Of a DNA stretch of 64,000 bases, positions 16,413 to 48,844 are shown piece after piece. Each line of letters begins with the position of its first letter. Position 1 is the stretch's first letter. Origin of the DNA: Blattabacterium cuenoti. GTDB lineage: Bacteria; Bacteroidota; Bacteroidia; Flavobacteriales; Blattabacteriaceae. Under the pieces are notes generated by a model, which saw only the letters and a program-made list of their open reading frames with translations, did no database searches and was not told the DNA's origin. The translations under genes were made by a program, and so were the position numbers. The DNA is taken from assembly GCF_014251555.1 (NCBI RefSeq), contig NZ_CP059190.1:571308-635307 (forward strand), in the 5' to 3' direction.

Positions 16413-17969
16413 ATGTCTAACTACAATAAATCAGATCATCTTCTTTTATTAATTCAAACTTTATCAAAATCAGAAAAAAGAAATTTTAAACTTTATGCTA
16501 GTCGCATAAAAAGGAATAAATGTGCCAAGTTTATGAAACTTTTTGAAATCATGAGCAAAATAAATTCTTATGATGAAAAAAAAATATTAAAAAATGCACC
16601 TATAAGCAAAATGCAACTTTCTAATGTAAAAGCTAATTTATATAAACAAATTTTAATTAGTCTTAAGTTGCAACACACTGAAGAAAATCATGATATACAA
16701 ATACGTGAATATTTAGATTTTGCTAAAATTTTATATAATAAAGGTTTATATATACAAAGCTTGAAATTATTAGGAAAAGCGAAAGTCATTGCTAGATGTT
16801 ATGAACATAATACTATTCTTTTAGAATTAGTAGAGTTTGAAAAAATGATAGAATCTCAGCATATAACTAGAAGTCTTTATTCTAGATCCGGAGAACTATC
16901 AGCAGAATCTAAAGAATTAATTGAAAGAATACAATGTAATAATGCTTTATCTAGTCTTTCTCTGGAATTGTATGGTTTATATTTAAAAGTAGGATATGTA
17001 AGAAATGAAAAGGACAAAATATTTATAGAAACATATTTTCGTACAAATCTTCCGAAATTTGATATTGATAAACTTAGTTTTTACGAAAAATTGTTTCTAT
17101 ATCAGGCTCAAGTATGGTATCATTATATCCGACAGGATTTCATTATGTGCTATAGATCATCTTATAAATGGGTGGAATTGTTTCAAAATCATACAAAAGA
17201 AAAAAAAATAGCTCCTGTCAGTTACTTGAAAGGATATCATTATTTATTAGATACTTTGTTTTATTTGAATCATTACTCAAAGTTTACTAATGTATTAAAA
17301 AAATTTGAAAAGGAAGTCAAAAATGGAGAAATACTTATCAATGGAAATACCAGAATATTAATTTTTATGTATACATATACTAATCGTATTAACAAACATT
17401 ATATGGAAGGAAGTTTTTCAGAAGGGGTGAAAAAAGTTATTCCATCATTATTTATGGATTTCAAAAAAATCTCTAATCGTTTAGACTCTCATTATATTAT
17501 GGTTCTTTATTACAAAATTGCTTGTTTGTATTTCGGAAGTGGAGATCATGAAAAAGCCATTCTATATTTATCAAAAATCATGGAAAATAAAAAAAAAAAT
17601 TTACGACAAGATTTACAATGTATTGCCAGGCTTCTACATTTAATTGCTTGTTATGAGAGTGGATTAGATGAAAATATGGATCAAAAGATTCAGTCCGCAT
17701 ACAGATTTTTTATTCAAATGGATGATTGGTATATCGTGCAAAAAAAAATAATTTATTTTTTTAAAAATCTGGGAAATGTATATCCACATCAAATCAAAGG
17801 TCAGTTTAAAAAATTAAGAGATAAATTAATTAAATATTATGATCATCCTTATGAAAAGAGAACCTTTCTATATTTAGATATTATTTCTTGGCTGAATTCT
17901 AAAATAGAGAATAAATCCGTAGAAGTCATTATAAAAGAAAAGTTTATAAAAACTAATCCACAAAAATAA
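16413..17969 (+). CDS. conserved Bacteroidetes TPR-like protein of unknown function
   Basis: A 518-residue soluble, alpha-helical protein. The N-terminus (LLIQTLSKSEKRNFKLYASR) resembles a conserved flavobacterial family of unknown function that has the same SKSEKR opening. The rest is a series of helical pairs resembling tetratricopeptide repeats (for example ILYNKGLYIQSLKLLGKAK and YLKGYHYLLDTLFYLNHYSK), which suggests a protein-binding scaffold. No signal peptide, transmembrane segment or enzyme motif is visible. Its retention at full length in a reduced genome argues that it matters. Neighbours give no functional hint. Confidence 0.75.
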   Translation: MSNYNKSDHLLLLIQTLSKSEKRNFKLYASRIKRNKCAKFMKLFEIMSKINSYDEKKILKNAPISKMQLSNVKANLYKQILISLKLQHTEENHDIQIREYLDFAKILYNKGLYIQSLKLLGKAKVIARCYEHNTILLELVEFEKMIESQHITRSLYSRSGELSAESKELIERIQCNNALSSLSLELYGLYLKVGYVRNEKDKIFIETYFRTNLPKFDIDKLSFYEKLFLYQAQVWYHYIRQDFIMCYRSSYKWVELFQNHTKEKKIAPVSYLKGYHYLLDTLFYLNHYSKFTNVLKKFEKEVKNGEILINGNTRILIFMYTYTNRINKHYMEGSFSEGVKKVIPSLFMDFKKISNRLDSHYIMVLYYKIACLYFGSGDHEKAILYLSKIMENKKKNLRQDLQCIARLLHLIACYESGLDENMDQKIQSAYRFFIQMDDWYIVQKKIIYFFKNLGNVYPHQIKGQFKKLRDKLIKYYDHPYEKRTFLYLDIISWLNSKIENKSVEVIIKEKFIKTNPQK

Positions 17970-17985
17970 ATTTTTTTATATCAAT

Positions 17986-18339
17986 TTATATCAATAAAAA
18001 CACAATTCTAAAAAAGAGAATCATAAAATATGAAAAAATAAAATTAGCAAAAGCTCTTAATGAATTAGAAAAATAATCATATTCAATCATTAAGTAGACA
18101 AAAACAAAAACACCAAAAAATAACTTAATTATACTACATAATACATAAACAGTTAGTTTATATTTTTTTATACTTGCAAGCAAACAAAGAAAAAACAAAA
18201 AACTGCTGAAAGGCAACAAAAAAATATATATTCTTAATATGACAAGAAAATCTATTCTAAAAAAAAAGGCACTGAAAATGACGTGTATTAAACTAAAAAA
18301 GAAAGTGAAAAAATTGTATCCTATAATCTTTTTTCTCAT
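17986..18339 (-). CDS. small integral membrane protein, function unknown
   Basis: A 117-residue, very hydrophobic protein with four predicted membrane segments (about residues 8-28, 34-54, 63-85 and 93-115) separated by short basic or polar turns. I do not recognise it with confidence; its size and topology resemble small four-helix proteins that accompany ATP synthase genes in flavobacteria, but no ATP synthase gene is adjacent. It lies in a small gap between the TPR-like gene (convergent, 16 bp) and tyrS (divergent, 19 bp). High A/T content makes spurious hydrophobic ORFs possible, so I keep moderate confidence. Confidence 0.55.
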   Translation of the reverse strand: MRKKIIGYNFFTFFFSLIHVIFSAFFFRIDFLVILRIYIFLLPFSSFLFFLCLLASIKKYKLTVYVLCSIIKLFFGVFVFVYLMIEYDYFSNSLRAFANFIFSYFMILFFRIVFLLI

Positions 18340-18358
18340 TAAATATCACTTTTAATAC

Positions 18359-19636
18359 ATGCAACAAAATATTATTGATGAACTCTCATGGAGAGGTTTA
18401 ATAAAAAATAAAGTTTCTGGCATAGAAAATCAATTAAAAAAACCTACCACGATGTACATCGGCTTTGACCCTACATCTGATTCTCTTCACTTAGGTAGTT
18501 TGCTTCCTCTTATTATTCTCATTCATTTTCAAAAAATGGGACATAAATCCTTAGTATTGATTGGAGGAGCAACTGGTTTTATAGGAGATCCTTCTGGAAG
18601 AAAAGATAACAGGATTTTTCTTAGTCAAGAAATTTTACGAAAAAATACAGAATCTATAAGAAATCAAATCTTAAAACTTTTGAAGTTTCACTCAGAAAAA
18701 ACAGAATTATTAAATAATTTAGATTGGATTCAAAATGTTTCTTTTTTAGAATTTATTCGTGATATTGGAAAATATTTTACTGTAAACTATATGATCTCTA
18801 AAGATTCTGTGAAGAAAAGAATTAATGATGAAAAAAACGGAATTTCCTTCACTGAATTTTCTTATTCCCTGATACAGGGATACGATTTTTTATATTTAAA
18901 TCAAATGAAAAATTGTCTGTTACAAATAGGTGGATCTGATCAATGGGGAAATATCACAACAGGCATAGAACTGATCAGAAAAAAAACAGGTAAAAAAGCA
19001 TATGGAGTTACTTTTCCTTTAATAACAAAAGCGAATGGAATAAAATTTGGAAAAAGTGAAAAAGGAGAAAATATATGGTTAGATAAAAAAAAAACTTCTC
19101 CATACAAATTCTATCAGTTTTGGATCAACATTTCTGATTTTGAAATTGAAAAATATATAAAAATATATACTTTTTTTTCTAAGAAGGAAATCGATCAATT
19201 AATTGGTCAACACAGAAAAAATCCAAATAAAAGATTTTTACAAAAAAAATTAGCTCATGAAATCACTAAATGGGTTCATGGGAATGAAATTTCCGAAAAA
19301 ATCATAAAAATCACACATATATTATTTGATAAAAATAATGAAACTTTACAATTTTTAAATGAAGAAACACTCATTTCTATATACAATCACATTCCACATA
19401 TGGAACTCTCTTGTGAAGAATTTGAAAAAGGAATTTTTTTATTAGATCTTTTAAAGAAAAGTGGCTTTTTTTATTCTAAAAGTGAAGCTAGTCGAGCTCT
19501 AAAAGCAAATTCAATTTATTTAAATAAAATTTTAACAAAAGAAAATATATTGCTACAAAAAAATAATATTATAGGAGAAAAGTACATTTTACTCCAATTT
19601 GGAAAAAAAGAATTTTTCATCATAAAAATTAAATAA
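18359..19636 (+). CDS. tyrS: tyrosyl-tRNA synthetase
   Basis: A 425-residue class I synthetase charging tRNA-Tyr. The HIGH-equivalent is HLGS at 44-47 after YIGFDPTSDSL; the KMSKS-equivalent is KFGKS at 229-233; the tyrosine pocket shows GGSDQWGNITTG. The C-terminal 70 residues form an S4 RNA-binding domain (KSEASRALKANSIYLNK), so this is the full bacterial TyrRS architecture. The stop is 2 bp from the convergent era stop. Confidence 0.97.
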   Translation: MQQNIIDELSWRGLIKNKVSGIENQLKKPTTMYIGFDPTSDSLHLGSLLPLIILIHFQKMGHKSLVLIGGATGFIGDPSGRKDNRIFLSQEILRKNTESIRNQILKLLKFHSEKTELLNNLDWIQNVSFLEFIRDIGKYFTVNYMISKDSVKKRINDEKNGISFTEFSYSLIQGYDFLYLNQMKNCLLQIGGSDQWGNITTGIELIRKKTGKKAYGVTFPLITKANGIKFGKSEKGENIWLDKKKTSPYKFYQFWINISDFEIEKYIKIYTFFSKKEIDQLIGQHRKNPNKRFLQKKLAHEITKWVHGNEISEKIIKITHILFDKNNETLQFLNEETLISIYNHIPHMELSCEEFEKGIFLLDLLKKSGFFYSKSEASRALKANSIYLNKILTKENILLQKNNIIGEKYILLQFGKKEFFIIKIK

Positions 19637-19638
19637 AT

Positions 19639-20520
19639 TCAGTATCCAAAAAATTTCAATTTTTTATAGTCATATCGCCAATTTGGACAAATTTTCACAT
19701 GAAGCTTTAATTTGATTTTTTTTCTCAAAAAAGACTCTATGCTTCTTATAGAAAAAAATTTCAATTTTTTAAGAGTTTCTCCTCTATTTCCGATTAAAAT
19801 TCCTTTTTGAGAGCTTCGTTCTACATAGATATAAGATAATATATCTATGAAAGTTTTTTCTTTTTTAAAAAGCACTGTATTTATTTCTACGGAGTAAGGG
19901 ATTTCTTTTTTGTATAGAAAAAATATTTTCTCTCTAATTATTTCATTTACAAAAAAACGTTTAGATCTGTTACTTAAAAATTCTTTGGGATAATAAGGAG
20001 GATGTTCAGATAATAAGGCTATAATTTTGTTCATTAAAAGATCTTGATTCGTTTTTTTTAATGCAGATATTGGTAATATTTCTGAATTAGGAAATAATTT
20101 ATGCCAATAATCAATTCCATGATATAATATATTCTCTCTACATTTTATTCCTATTTTATCTATTTTATTAATTAATATAATAATGGGTACATTTTTTTTT
20201 TTAAGTTCATTGAATATTGGAAGATATTCTAGTTTCCCAATTTCTGTTATTAACAAAATAATATCTGCATCTTCCAATGATTTTTCCACATATTGCATCA
20301 TAATTTTTTGCATAGGGTAAAGAGGATTAATTATTCCTGGAGTATCAGAAAATATAATCTGAAAATTAGATTCATTAATAATTCCCAATATTCTATGACG
20401 AGTAGTTTGTGGTTTATATGTTATTATGGAAAGCCTTTCTCCTACTAAAGAATTCATTAAGGTAGACTTTCCGGTATTAGGAAATCCTATAATATTAACA
20501 AAACCAGATTTATGAATCAC
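19639..20520 (-). CDS. era: GTPase Era
   Basis: A 293-residue GTPase that binds 16S rRNA near the 3' end during 30S maturation. G1 is GFPNTGKST at 12-20, G3 DTPG (about 58-61), and G4 NKID. The C-terminal KH domain contains GILIGNRGETLKK, the RNA-binding loop. It lies 9 bp downstream of clpB on the same strand, and converges with tyrS. Confidence 0.97.
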   Translation of the reverse strand: MIHKSGFVNIIGFPNTGKSTLMNSLVGERLSIITYKPQTTRHRILGIINESNFQIIFSDTPGIINPLYPMQKIMMQYVEKSLEDADIILLITEIGKLEYLPIFNELKKKNVPIIILINKIDKIGIKCRENILYHGIDYWHKLFPNSEILPISALKKTNQDLLMNKIIALLSEHPPYYPKEFLSNRSKRFFVNEIIREKIFFLYKKEIPYSVEINTVLFKKEKTFIDILSYIYVERSSQKGILIGNRGETLKKLKFFSIRSIESFLRKKIKLKLHVKICPNWRYDYKKLKFFGY

Positions 20521-20529
20521 TATTCTTCA

Positions 20530-23157
20530 TTATTGAATATTCACATTTTCTAATTTTTCTGACTGACGAAATACAATTCCTTGTTCTTTGAAAAAGTCTA
20601 TCAATATTTTATGATTTTTCTGTATATTTCCTCCAATAATTTCTTTGGAAAGATTATTTAAAATGTCATGTTGTATAACTCTTTTTAAAGGTCTAGCTCC
20701 AAAATGAGGATCGTATCCTTTTTCTGATAAATATTCTATAGCTTCATGAGTAGATTCTATACGAATATTCTTTTTATTTAATAATAAATCACCTAATTTT
20801 TTCATTTGCAATTTAACAATCCCTTTAATTTCTTTTCTAGAAAGAGGTTTAAACAAAATAATTTCATCAATACGATTAATAAATTCAGGTTTTACAATAT
20901 TTTTTAACAAATCTATCAAAGCTTTTTTTGTAGCTTCCATTCGATTAGAAGATATTTCTTGATCTAAATTTTCCTGAATGATATCCGCTCCTATATTGGA
21001 AGTCATAATGATAATGGTATTTGTGAAATTAACTGTTCTTCCTTTATTATCTGTCAATCTTCCATCATCCAAAACCTGTAAGAGAATATTAAAAACATCT
21101 GAATGTGCTTTTTCTATTTCGTCTAATAAAATAACACTATAAGGACGTCTTCGTATAGCTTCTGTTAATTGTCCACTTTCATCATAACCTATATATCCAG
21201 GTGGAGCTCCTATCAGTCTGCTGACAGAATGACGTTCTTGATATTCGCTCATATCTATACGAACCATATTGTTTTCATCATCAAACAGATACTCTGCCAA
21301 TGTTTTAGCAAGTTCTGTTTTTCCTACTCCTGTACTACCCATAAAAAGAAAAGATCCTATAGGTCTTTTTTCATCTTGTAATCCAGCTCTAGAACGTCGT
21401 ATCGCATCTGCTACAGATTGAATTGCCTCATTTTGTCCGATCACTCTTCTGTGTAATTCTTTCTCCAAAAATAATAATTTTTCTCTTTCACTTTGCAACA
21501 TTTTAGTAACTGGAATCCCAGTCCATTTGGATATTATTTGAGCTATCTCTTCTCTGGAGACTTCTTCTTGTATCATTTTTTTCCCTTTATCTTTCTGTTT
21601 TTTGAATTCATCTTCAAATGCTTTTACTTTATTTTCTTCTTCTTTTATCTTTCCATATCTTAATTCTGCCACTTTACCGTAATCTCCTGATCTTTCGGCT
21701 TGTTCTGCTTCAAATCTATAATTTTCTATTTTATCTTTAGCTTTTTGTATTCCTTCAACTAAATCTTTTTCACTTTGCCATTGAGCTTGTAGTTGCATTT
21801 TTTTTTCATTTAATTTAGACAGTTCCTTTTTTAAAGGAATCAACTGTTTTTCATCATTTTCTCTTTTCAAAGCTTCCATTTGTATTTCCATATGCATGAT
21901 TTTTCTGTGCAATGCATCTAATTCTTCTGGTTTTGAATTAATTTCCATTCTTAACTTTGAAGCAGCTTCGTCTACAAGATCTATAGCTTTGTCAGGCAAA
22001 AAACGTTCATTAATATAACGTTTTGACAACTCTACAGCTGCTATAATAGACTCATCTTTAATTCTTACTTTATGATGGCTTTCATATTTTTCTTTAATTC
22101 CACGCAATATAGATACAGCGTCAGTAACAGAAGGTTCATCAACGTAGACTTGTTGAAATCTTCTTTCTAAAGCTTTATCTACTCTAAAATATTTTTGATA
22201 TTCATTTAAAGTTGTAGCTCCTATAGCCCTAAGCTCTCCTCTTGCTAATGCTGGTTTTAAAATATTTGCTGCATCCATAGAACCCTCTCCTCCTCCTGCA
22301 CCAACCAAGGTATGGATCTCATCAATAAACAAAATAATTTCTCCATCTGAAGATGTGACTTCTTTGACGACAGCTTTGAGCCGTTCTTCAAACTCTCCTT
22401 TATATTTTGCTCCTGCAATTAAAGAAGCCATATCTAAAGAAAAAACTTGTTTATTTCTTAAGTTATCCGGAATGTCTCCACTAATGATACGATGAGCTAA
22501 TCCTTCAGCAATAGCTGTCTTTCCCACTCCTGGCTCACCAATCAAAATTGGATTATTTTTTGTTCTTCTAGACAATATTTGCAAAACTCTGCGTATTTCT
22601 TCATCACGTCCAATAACGGGATCTAATTTCCCTTTATAAGCCCATTCATTAAGATTTTTTGCGTATTTTTCCAAAGCATTATAGGTATTTTCAGGTGTAG
22701 TAGAAATCACATTTCCGCTTTTTTTTCTAATACTTTCAATTATTTCTTTAATTTTTTCTTCTGTTACTCCTTGATCTTTAATAATTTGAGAGGTTTGATC
22801 TAAACTCATAAAAATTCCGTAGAAAATATGTTCTATAGAAATGAATTTATCTTTTAATGTTTTGGCATAATTTTCCGCTATATTTAACATTTTTGTTACA
22901 TGTGAACTCAAATGTTGAGTGAAAGATCCACTTATTATTTTTGGGTAAGAAGAAATAATACGGTCTAATCCTGTTATTATTAATTGATGATTTATTTTTA
23001 ATTTTTTCAAAAGAAAAGGGATTATGTTTTCCTCAATCTTGAAAATGGATTTCAAAATATGTGCATTTTCAATAGACTGTTGATGATTCTTTCGTGCAAT
23101 CCGTTGTGCTTCCTGTATTACTTCTTGAGATTTTATAGTAAACTTATTAGAATTCAT
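20530..23157 (-). CDS. clpB: ClpB disaggregase
   Basis: An 875-residue hexameric AAA+ chaperone that resolves protein aggregates together with DnaK. The N-terminal Clp repeat domain spans about 1-150; NBD1 has Walker A GEPGVGKT at 207-214 and Walker [10 protein letters not shown]; a coiled-coil middle domain (about 400-540) follows; NBD2 has GSTGVGKT near residue 610 and [11 protein letters not shown]. The C-terminal extension is short. Aggregation control is commonly kept in endosymbionts that accumulate mildly destabilising mutations. It is divergent from prfB across about 95 bp and upstream of era. Confidence 0.97.
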
Positions 23158-46929: not shown

Positions 46930-47493
46930 TTACTTCTTAATTCTTTCTATATAAGATCTATGTTCTGTATTGATCTTAACAAGTTCTCCTATATCTATAA
47001 AAGAAGGGACCAATAATCTAGTTCCTGTTTCTAAAACAGCAATTTTATTGGTGTTATTAATGGTATCTCCTTTTTTAACAATTTCTGTGTGTTTCACTTT
47101 TAAAATAACTGTAGAAGGCATCTTTAAAAAGAGAAAAGTCTTTTCTTTTTCATTTTTAATATGAAAAAAAATCGTAATTCTCATTCCTTCTTTTAAAAAC
47201 TCTATATTTTTTATCAGTTTTTCTTCTATTTGTATTTGATCATAATTTATTTCATTCATGAAATAAAAAAAATCCTTTTCCTTGTATAAATACCAATAAA
47301 AATTAGATTTTACTTTAACCTCTTTAAGTTTATGTTTCGCTGAAAAGTTATTTTCTAGAATATGACCTGTAACCAGATTTTTTAATTTAGTTCTGACAAA
47401 AGCATATCCTTTTCCTGGTTTTACATGAAGAAAATCAATTATTTTATATACTTCTTTATTCCATTGTATATGTAATCCTTTTCTAATATTCAT
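46930..47493 (-). CDS. efp: translation elongation factor P
   Basis: A 187-residue three-domain factor that relieves ribosome stalling at proline runs. The loop carrying the modifiable residue is VKPGKGYAFVRTK (Lys at about 33), with Tyr where many EF-Ps have Ala or Pro after the GKG. Domain III ends ERIKK. The central domain is noticeably diverged and rich in Phe, Lys and Ile. It lies between lpxC-fabZ and sucD on the same strand. Confidence 0.95.
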   Translation of the reverse strand: MNIRKGLHIQWNKEVYKIIDFLHVKPGKGYAFVRTKLKNLVTGHILENNFSAKHKLKEVKVKSNFYWYLYKEKDFFYFMNEINYDQIQIEEKLIKNIEFLKEGMRITIFFHIKNEKEKTFLFLKMPSTVILKVKHTEIVKKGDTINNTNKIAVLETGTRLLVPSFIDIGELVKINTEHRSYIERIKK

Positions 47494-47515
47494 TTTTTTT
47501 AAATTAAAATTTTTG

Positions 47516-48844
47516 TCAAGATTCGTTATAACTTTTAACTACTTTTGCCATAACTTCTGCCTCTACCACGAGTTTATTATTTACGTAACCTTTTCCTTGC
47601 ATATGAACTATTCCTCTTTTCATGGATTCCAATAAATCAACTTTAAAGATAATTATGTCTCCAGGTACTATTTTATGTTTAAATTTAACTTTATCTATTT
47701 TTAGAAAATAAGTAGAATACAATTCAGGATTGTTCAATTTATTTAACACAAGTATTCCTCCTACTTGTGCTATAGCTTCTATTTGCAATACACCAGGCAT
47801 GATCGGTTCTTTTGGAAAATGACCTATGAAAAAAGATTCATTTATAGTTACATTTTTAACTCCTGTGACACTGTCTTCCGTTAAATCTATAATTTTATCT
47901 ACCATAAGAAATGGAGGTTTATGAGGCAAAATTTTCATGATTTTTTTTATATCTAAGATGGGTTTCTTTGCTAAATCAAATTGAGGAATATCATTTTTTT
48001 TAAAGATTTTAACTTTTTTAATTAACTCTTTTAGAAATTGCATAATAATATAATTATCAGGCTTATAAAAAATCAATTTTACTTTTAATTTAGCTCCTGT
48101 TAAAGTCAAAAAACCTATAATATCTAAAAGAATATGTTTAGCTATTTCATTAGATTCTTGATAGGAAAAAGGGAAAAAATAAGATATAGGTTTTTTTTTC
48201 TTTTTTTTAAGTTGATTGATTGAAAATAAGTTATTCTCTGATTTTTTGGTTCTTTTTTCACGAAGAATACAAAAATTTTTTGAACTAGCTATTTTTTGTT
48301 TAAATTGATTCAAATTTTTCAATACTGCATTTTGTCCAAATTTTGAATCAAAATCTATCATGGTCATGATTTCAAATTTTTTAGCAGGGAAAGCTATAAT
48401 CTCTGCTCCTGTTTTTGTATTTTCATAAGAAATAATTTCTGTTATCGAATAATATCTTCTGCTTGCATCTTGTTCTATTACTCCAACTTTTTCAATTGCG
48501 TCTACAAAAAATTTTGAAGAACCGTCCATAATAGGAATTTCTATGTTATCTAATTCTATAATAACATTATCTAAATCCATTCCTGTAAGAGCCGCTAGAA
48601 TATGTTCAATCGTATAAATTTTTAATCCATTTTTTTCCAAAATAATACCTTGATCTATTCTTTCTTTTAACAAGAAAGAAAAATGTGCCTTTATGCAAGG
48701 CTTTTCTTTGATATCTGTTCTAATAAAAATAAACCCTGTATGTTCTGGAGCTGGTTTAAAAGTAATAGTCACTTTTTTTTCAGTATATAAACCGAATCCT
48801 TGTAAAGAAATTTTTTTTGCAATAGTTTTTTGCTTTTCAAGCAT
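47516..48844 (-). CDS. lpxC/fabZ: LpxC-FabZ fusion with degraded LpxC half and intact FabZ half
   Basis: A 442-residue fusion typical of Bacteroidetes. The FabZ half (about 300-442) keeps the active residues His342 (GHFP) and Glu356 (LQIEA), so 3-hydroxyacyl-ACP dehydration for fatty acid synthesis should work. The LpxC half (1 to about 295) keeps TIEHILAAL (Glu80, His81) and His237/Asp241, but positions equivalent to E. coli His19, Thr191, Asp246 and His265 are Tyr20, Asn190, Phe245 and Asn264. The middle (about 196-225) is shortened and replaced by a lysine run. The LpxC domain is probably inactive. Confidence 0.93.
   Translation of the reverse strand: MLEKQKTIAKKISLQGFGLYTEKKVTITFKPAPEHTGFIFIRTDIKEKPCIKAHFSFLLKERIDQGIILEKNGLKIYTIEHILAALTGMDLDNVIIELDNIEIPIMDGSSKFFVDAIEKVGVIEQDASRRYYSITEIISYENTKTGAEIIAFPAKKFEIMTMIDFDSKFGQNAVLKNLNQFKQKIASSKNFCILREKRTKKSENNLFSINQLKKKKKKPISYFFPFSYQESNEIAKHILLDIIGFLTLTGAKLKVKLIFYKPDNYIIMQFLKELIKKVKIFKKNDIPQFDLAKKPILDIKKIMKILPHKPPFLMVDKIIDLTEDSVTGVKNVTINESFFIGHFPKEPIMPGVLQIEAIAQVGGILVLNKLNNPELYSTYFLKIDKVKFKHKIVPGDIIIFKVDLLESMKRGIVHMQGKGYVNNKLVVEAEVMAKVVKSYNES

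Follow-up and report, generated by a model that had tools for sequence, protein, structure and literature searches.

An LpxC half that has lost catalytic residues but stays under purifying selection in the LpxC–FabZ fusion of Blattabacterium

Blattabacterium is a genus of cockroach endosymbionts, and FabZ, the 3-hydroxyacyl-ACP dehydratase, is an essential fatty-acid enzyme. In the genome studied here (638.7 kb, a single contig), an open reading frame at 47516..48844 of the window, i.e., the 64-kb stretch of DNA that was analyzed, encodes an LpxC–FabZ fusion of 442 amino acids; it lies on the minus strand, as do its parts and the adjoining gap that are placed below by window coordinates. Pfam profiles matched LpxC (PF03331) at residues 5–275 (E = 2.7e-53) and a FabA-like domain at residues 306–430 (E = 4.9e-30). 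Profiles and alignment delimit an LpxC half (residues 1–285, 47990..48844) and a FabZ half (residues 294–442, 47516..47965). The fusion scored 560.8 against the LpxC–FabZ equivalog NF009667 (cut-off 465) and exceeded the FabZ profiles NF000582 (161.1 versus 113) and TIGR01750 (157.6 versus 155.15). Its score of 131.9 with the lpxC profile TIGR00325 falls below the cut-off of 187.25.

The fusion is separated from efp by a gap of 22 bases (47494..47515), the place occupied by lpxA in free-living Flavobacteriaceae. The gene order there is lpxD–lpxC/fabZ–lpxA–efp, as opposed to lpxC/fabZ–efp–sucD in the window; lpxA and lpxD of the free-living genomes were identified by position, in agreement with profile matches in other relatives. 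A promoter scan gave a signal no greater than in shuffled sequence. The fused lpxC/fabZ gene has been noted previously (PMC3087551), and the Blattabacterium protein shares with this Bacteroidota fusion (NF009667) the domain order, the place upstream of efp and a conserved FabZ half. Unlike it, the Blattabacterium protein has an LpxC half devoid of substrate-handling and catalytic residues and of the acyl-binding insert, and the adjoining lpxD and lpxA are gone.

A MAFFT alignment with E. coli LpxC (UDP-3-O-acyl-GlcNAc deacetylase, PF03331) revealed which sites have changed. As the preliminary description had stated, Tyr20 (48785..48787), Asn190 (48275..48277), Phe245 (48110..48112) and Asn264 stand at the places of His19, Thr191, Asp246 and His265, and further losses were found at Lys239 (now Ile238, 48131..48133) and Gly264 (now Asp263; the Asp263–Asn264 pair lies at 48053..48058). 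The same alignment bears out the conservation of Glu80–His81 (48602..48607), which correspond to the general base Glu78 and the zinc ligand His79, and of His237 (48134..48136) and Asp241 (48122..48124), which correspond to the zinc ligands His238 and Asp242. The fold, zinc ligands and Glu78 are thus common to both proteins, whereas His19, Thr191, Lys239, Asp246, Gly264 and His265 of the E. coli enzyme are replaced. The middle of the LpxC half is indeed short and lysine-rich, with 36 residues and 25% Lys (residues 196–231, 48152..48259) versus 60 residues and 10% Lys in free-living relatives. This loop takes the place of the acyl-binding insert, and the KGG(D/G) motif is missing from it. In the FabZ half, the catalytic residues His342 and Glu356 are intact. 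The residue numbers of the E. coli reference sequence were checked by script. All six replaced positions are invariant in 11/11 free-living relatives, so the assignments do not depend on the E. coli sequence alone, and the losses represent more than chance.

The same pattern extends across the genus, in which 37 genomes carry an open LpxC half. At the His19 position, Tyr is found in 36 of these and Lys in one; Lys239 is never retained, Asp246 is retained in three members of one clade, Thr191 in 11 and His265 in eight. Glu78 and His79 are kept in 37/37, His238 in 36/37 and Asp242 in 35/37. The zinc-ligand exchanges are always to other possible ligands, namely His238 to Cys in one genome (G023) and Asp242 to Glu in a sister pair (G066 and G071). 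As a yardstick of tolerated substitutions, the deep mutational scan of E. coli LpxC (PMC9842644, Table 1) was used. Each of the 37 LpxC halves carries three to eight changes disallowed by the scan, compared with none in the 11 free-living relatives. Two scored sites, G210 and A215, fall in the deleted insert, where the alignment is uncertain; when both are left out, no genome drops below two forbidden changes. None of Asn190, Ile238, Phe245 and Asn264 is allowed at its position. The roles of E78, T191, K239, D246 and H265 follow PMC6286764. Deacetylase catalysis by the Blattabacterium LpxC half is very probably gone.

The fold itself appears to have survived. AlphaFold2 modeling (36 sequences) gave a mean pLDDT of 81 for the fusion and mostly 82–96 for the LpxC half, except for residues 192–228, a loop with pLDDT below 50. 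Because the pTM is 0.60, the relative placing of the LpxC and FabZ domains in the model is uninformative. Glu80 and His81 start a helix (residues 80–88), and His237 and Asp241 lie within another (residues 233–247). The best Foldseek matches of the model were solved LpxC structures (E = 2e-23, target-based TM about 0.75–0.8). Together, sequence and model suggest that the LpxC fold remains and that the metal probably does as well.

To assess the pathway around this protein, profile searches were run across the genus. No match to lpxB, lpxK or waaA was found in 37/37 Blattabacterium genomes, and lpxA and lpxD yielded only weak hexapeptide matches far below the cut-off, whereas all five genes were present in 23/23 other Flavobacteriales under the same searches. 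Two of the lpxA/lpxD-like hits in the genome of the window were examined and rejected as a serine acetyltransferase-like protein and a sugar nucleotidyltransferase hexapeptide protein. An lpxB scan of 246 genomes of the order added no further reduced symbionts for comparison. The searches of the window's own genome detected neither a full lpx pathway nor a second LpxC, the fusion being the single match. These absences support the suggestion of the preliminary description that lipid A synthesis has been lost. They also weigh against the idea that the LpxC domain continues to produce a precursor of lipid A from a substrate supplied by the host or a co-symbiont: the pathway is missing both before and after the LpxC step, essential sites are substituted, and nothing was found in favor save the NF009667 equivalog, which names the fusion bifunctional. 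We regard this reading as exceedingly improbable.

A different hydrolase activity that retains zinc and Glu78 but is directed at some other molecule, perhaps an envelope glycolipid distinct from lipid A that the retained Lpt proteins transport, would account for the conserved ligands and general base, and it fits the presence of LptF/G in 43/49 genomes of the genus and of LptD- and OstA-like proteins in the genome of the window. However, Lys239, Asp246, His265, Gly264, Thr191 and the acyl-binding insert show decay that differs from strain to strain, unlike a site under selection to serve a shared substrate. Moreover, LptF/G is kept by most genomes without the LpxC half, while three genomes (G033, G036 and G017) keep LpxC without LptF/G. 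An altered hydrolase is therefore a very unlikely explanation.

Next, codon models were applied separately to the two halves of the 37 open fusions. Under MG+F1X4, omega was 0.224 for the LpxC half and 0.104 for FabZ; the corresponding values under GY+F3X4 were 0.114 and 0.048. Forcing omega to 1 costs 491 lnL units for the LpxC half and 600 for FabZ. The N-terminal subdomain of LpxC is the most constrained (omega 0.163). In three close genome pairs, pN/pS of the LpxC half ranked at the 71st, 89th and 69th percentile among 46–52 neighboring genes, and that of FabZ at the 4th–35th. The omega values and neighbor percentiles indicate that the LpxC half is under real, somewhat relaxed purifying selection. 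The preliminary description had viewed this half as structural ballast, or as a part with a new scaffolding role, that survives only through its fusion to FabZ. Its residue observations stand and its interpretation holds as regards lipid A loss and survival through the fusion, but ballast in the sense of free drift is contradicted by the omega of 0.22 and by zinc ligands and Glu78 kept across the whole radiation. Repeated loss of the half and its lysine-rich, variable middle loop would suit a domain that drifts freely and is open by happenstance. Against this, the frame is open in 37/49 genomes, and LpxC released from the fusion does show stops (G034 and G064). With omega so far below 1, the codon analysis refutes free drift unless the codon model was badly misled, and we consider it very unlikely.

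The distribution of the LpxC half was then followed over 49 Blattabacterium genomes. It is open in frame with FabZ in 37 and lost in 12, in which the FabZ frame begins anew close to where the former LpxC part ended. A full-length LpxC pseudogene with stops and gaps precedes an open FabZ in G034, its relative G064 retains N-terminal and C-terminal LpxC pieces with stops, and just the end of LpxC remains in G005. Because the outgroup fell inside the genus with weak support in the first outgroup tree, losses were counted on unrooted relations and several trial rootings. The 12 losses require eight Dollo events for most rootings tried and nine for one (FabZ+SucD tree); an earlier tree that grouped G019, G020 and G025 would reduce the count by one. 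FabZ residues His308, His342 and Glu356 are conserved in 49/49. The LpxC half has thus repeatedly proved dispensable, and survival through the FabZ fusion gains support, LpxC being the part shed about eight times to leave FabZ alone.

These losses bear on the possibility that the dead LpxC half has acquired a positive, non-catalytic role, as a zinc-binding domain serving FabZ in lipid-A-less cells: a scaffold for assembly of the FabZ oligomer, a holder of ACP or fatty-acid enzymes, or a zinc-dependent regulator of fatty-acid synthesis. Such a role would agree with purifying selection close to that on ordinary genes and strongest in the N-terminal subdomain, with the retained zinc site and Glu78, with the persistence of the half in 37/49 strongly reduced genomes, and with new genus-wide invariant residues including Tyr20, Lys144 and Thr145. 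It is harder to reconcile with about eight independent losses that left FabZ intact. Nor did FabZ accelerate significantly relative to SucD in lineages without the LpxC half (161:99 versus 258:199, p = 0.16), although the overlapping triplets make this a weak test. We deem a non-catalytic role doubtful but credible.

The account that we favor, as somewhat likelier to be right than wrong, is that lipid A was lost in an ancestor and that the dead LpxC half has since been kept foldable by being translated ahead of FabZ, until FabZ is freed. Lipid A synthesis would have disappeared in the Blattabacterium ancestor, a timing consistent with the absence of the genes in the members searched. Without substrate, His19 and Lys239, then Asp246, Gly264, Thr191 and His265 together with the acyl-binding insert would have decayed, as the sequences record, often to hydrophobic residues. 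LpxC comes first in the chain, so stops, frameshifts and misfolding in it would also cost FabZ. Because a broken LpxC in the shared chain carries this cost, selection would hold the half open and foldable, acting, we infer, on folding only, with the kept His/His/Asp probably binding zinc within the fold. A deletion or internal start would then yield a stand-alone FabZ, whereupon the LpxC half would fall apart and later be deleted, in a sequence of steps repeated about eight times according to the observed losses. The LpxC half thus appears, from its sequence, to be a constrained and probably zinc-binding pseudo-enzyme domain throughout the genus. On the other hand, an omega of 0.22 and pN/pS at the 69th–89th percentile can also occur in an ordinary functional gene. 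Conservation of Glu78 in 37/37 may go beyond what fold constraint alone demands, since E. coli LpxC tolerates E78V (PMC9842644). Because Glu78 is invariant and omega resembles that of an ordinary gene, some positive role is conceivable.

The same gene in Blattabacterium Bge, BLBBGE_037, is the sole assigned lipid IVA step in the metabolic model of 2013 and was re-annotated as the dehydratase in that work (PMC3819652). An additional study states that LPS is not fully made in Blattabacterium and removes it from the biomass (PMC3287516). In the accessible Blattabacterium literature, no account was found of the replaced residues, the conserved zinc ligands, the mode of selection or the recurrent shedding of the LpxC half, and a literature search found no paper treating LpxC together with the term pseudoenzyme. 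The locus offers a replicated natural experiment on a pathway-orphaned domain fused to an essential enzyme, in which the domain appears dead but constrained in 37 genomes and has been shed in 12, with one whole LpxC pseudogene. With such a system, what it costs to shed a fused domain can be told apart from any use that the domain has, and it would illustrate how a domain of no evident use can persist because of the partner with which it shares a protein. It also carries a warning: automatic annotation through NF009667, and metabolic models too, will assign to these symbionts without lipid A a deacetylase that is almost certainly absent.

Several further observations concern the envelope and the gene neighborhood. 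Despite the missing lipid A genes, LPS export proteins are kept in the genome of the window, comprising LptD_2, an OstA/LptA-like protein and two LptF/G proteins; the export genes lie at 17138–19381 and 19761–21446 (locus L131), 334272–335381 and 259221–260273 of contig C1. The LptD profile PF04453 misses Bacteroidota LptD in nearly all genomes, whereas PF19838 finds it (e.g., at L130:794–3115 in G026), so calls of LptD absence based on PF04453 are unsafe in Bacteroidota. A BamA-type Omp85 protein occurs in 44/49 genomes of the genus, and Blattabacterium therefore likely possesses an outer membrane without lipid A. The EF-P gene adjoining the fusion (46930–47493 in the window) is missing or reduced to a short piece beside FabZ in 18 of 37 loci, and it too seems to have been lost repeatedly in the genus.
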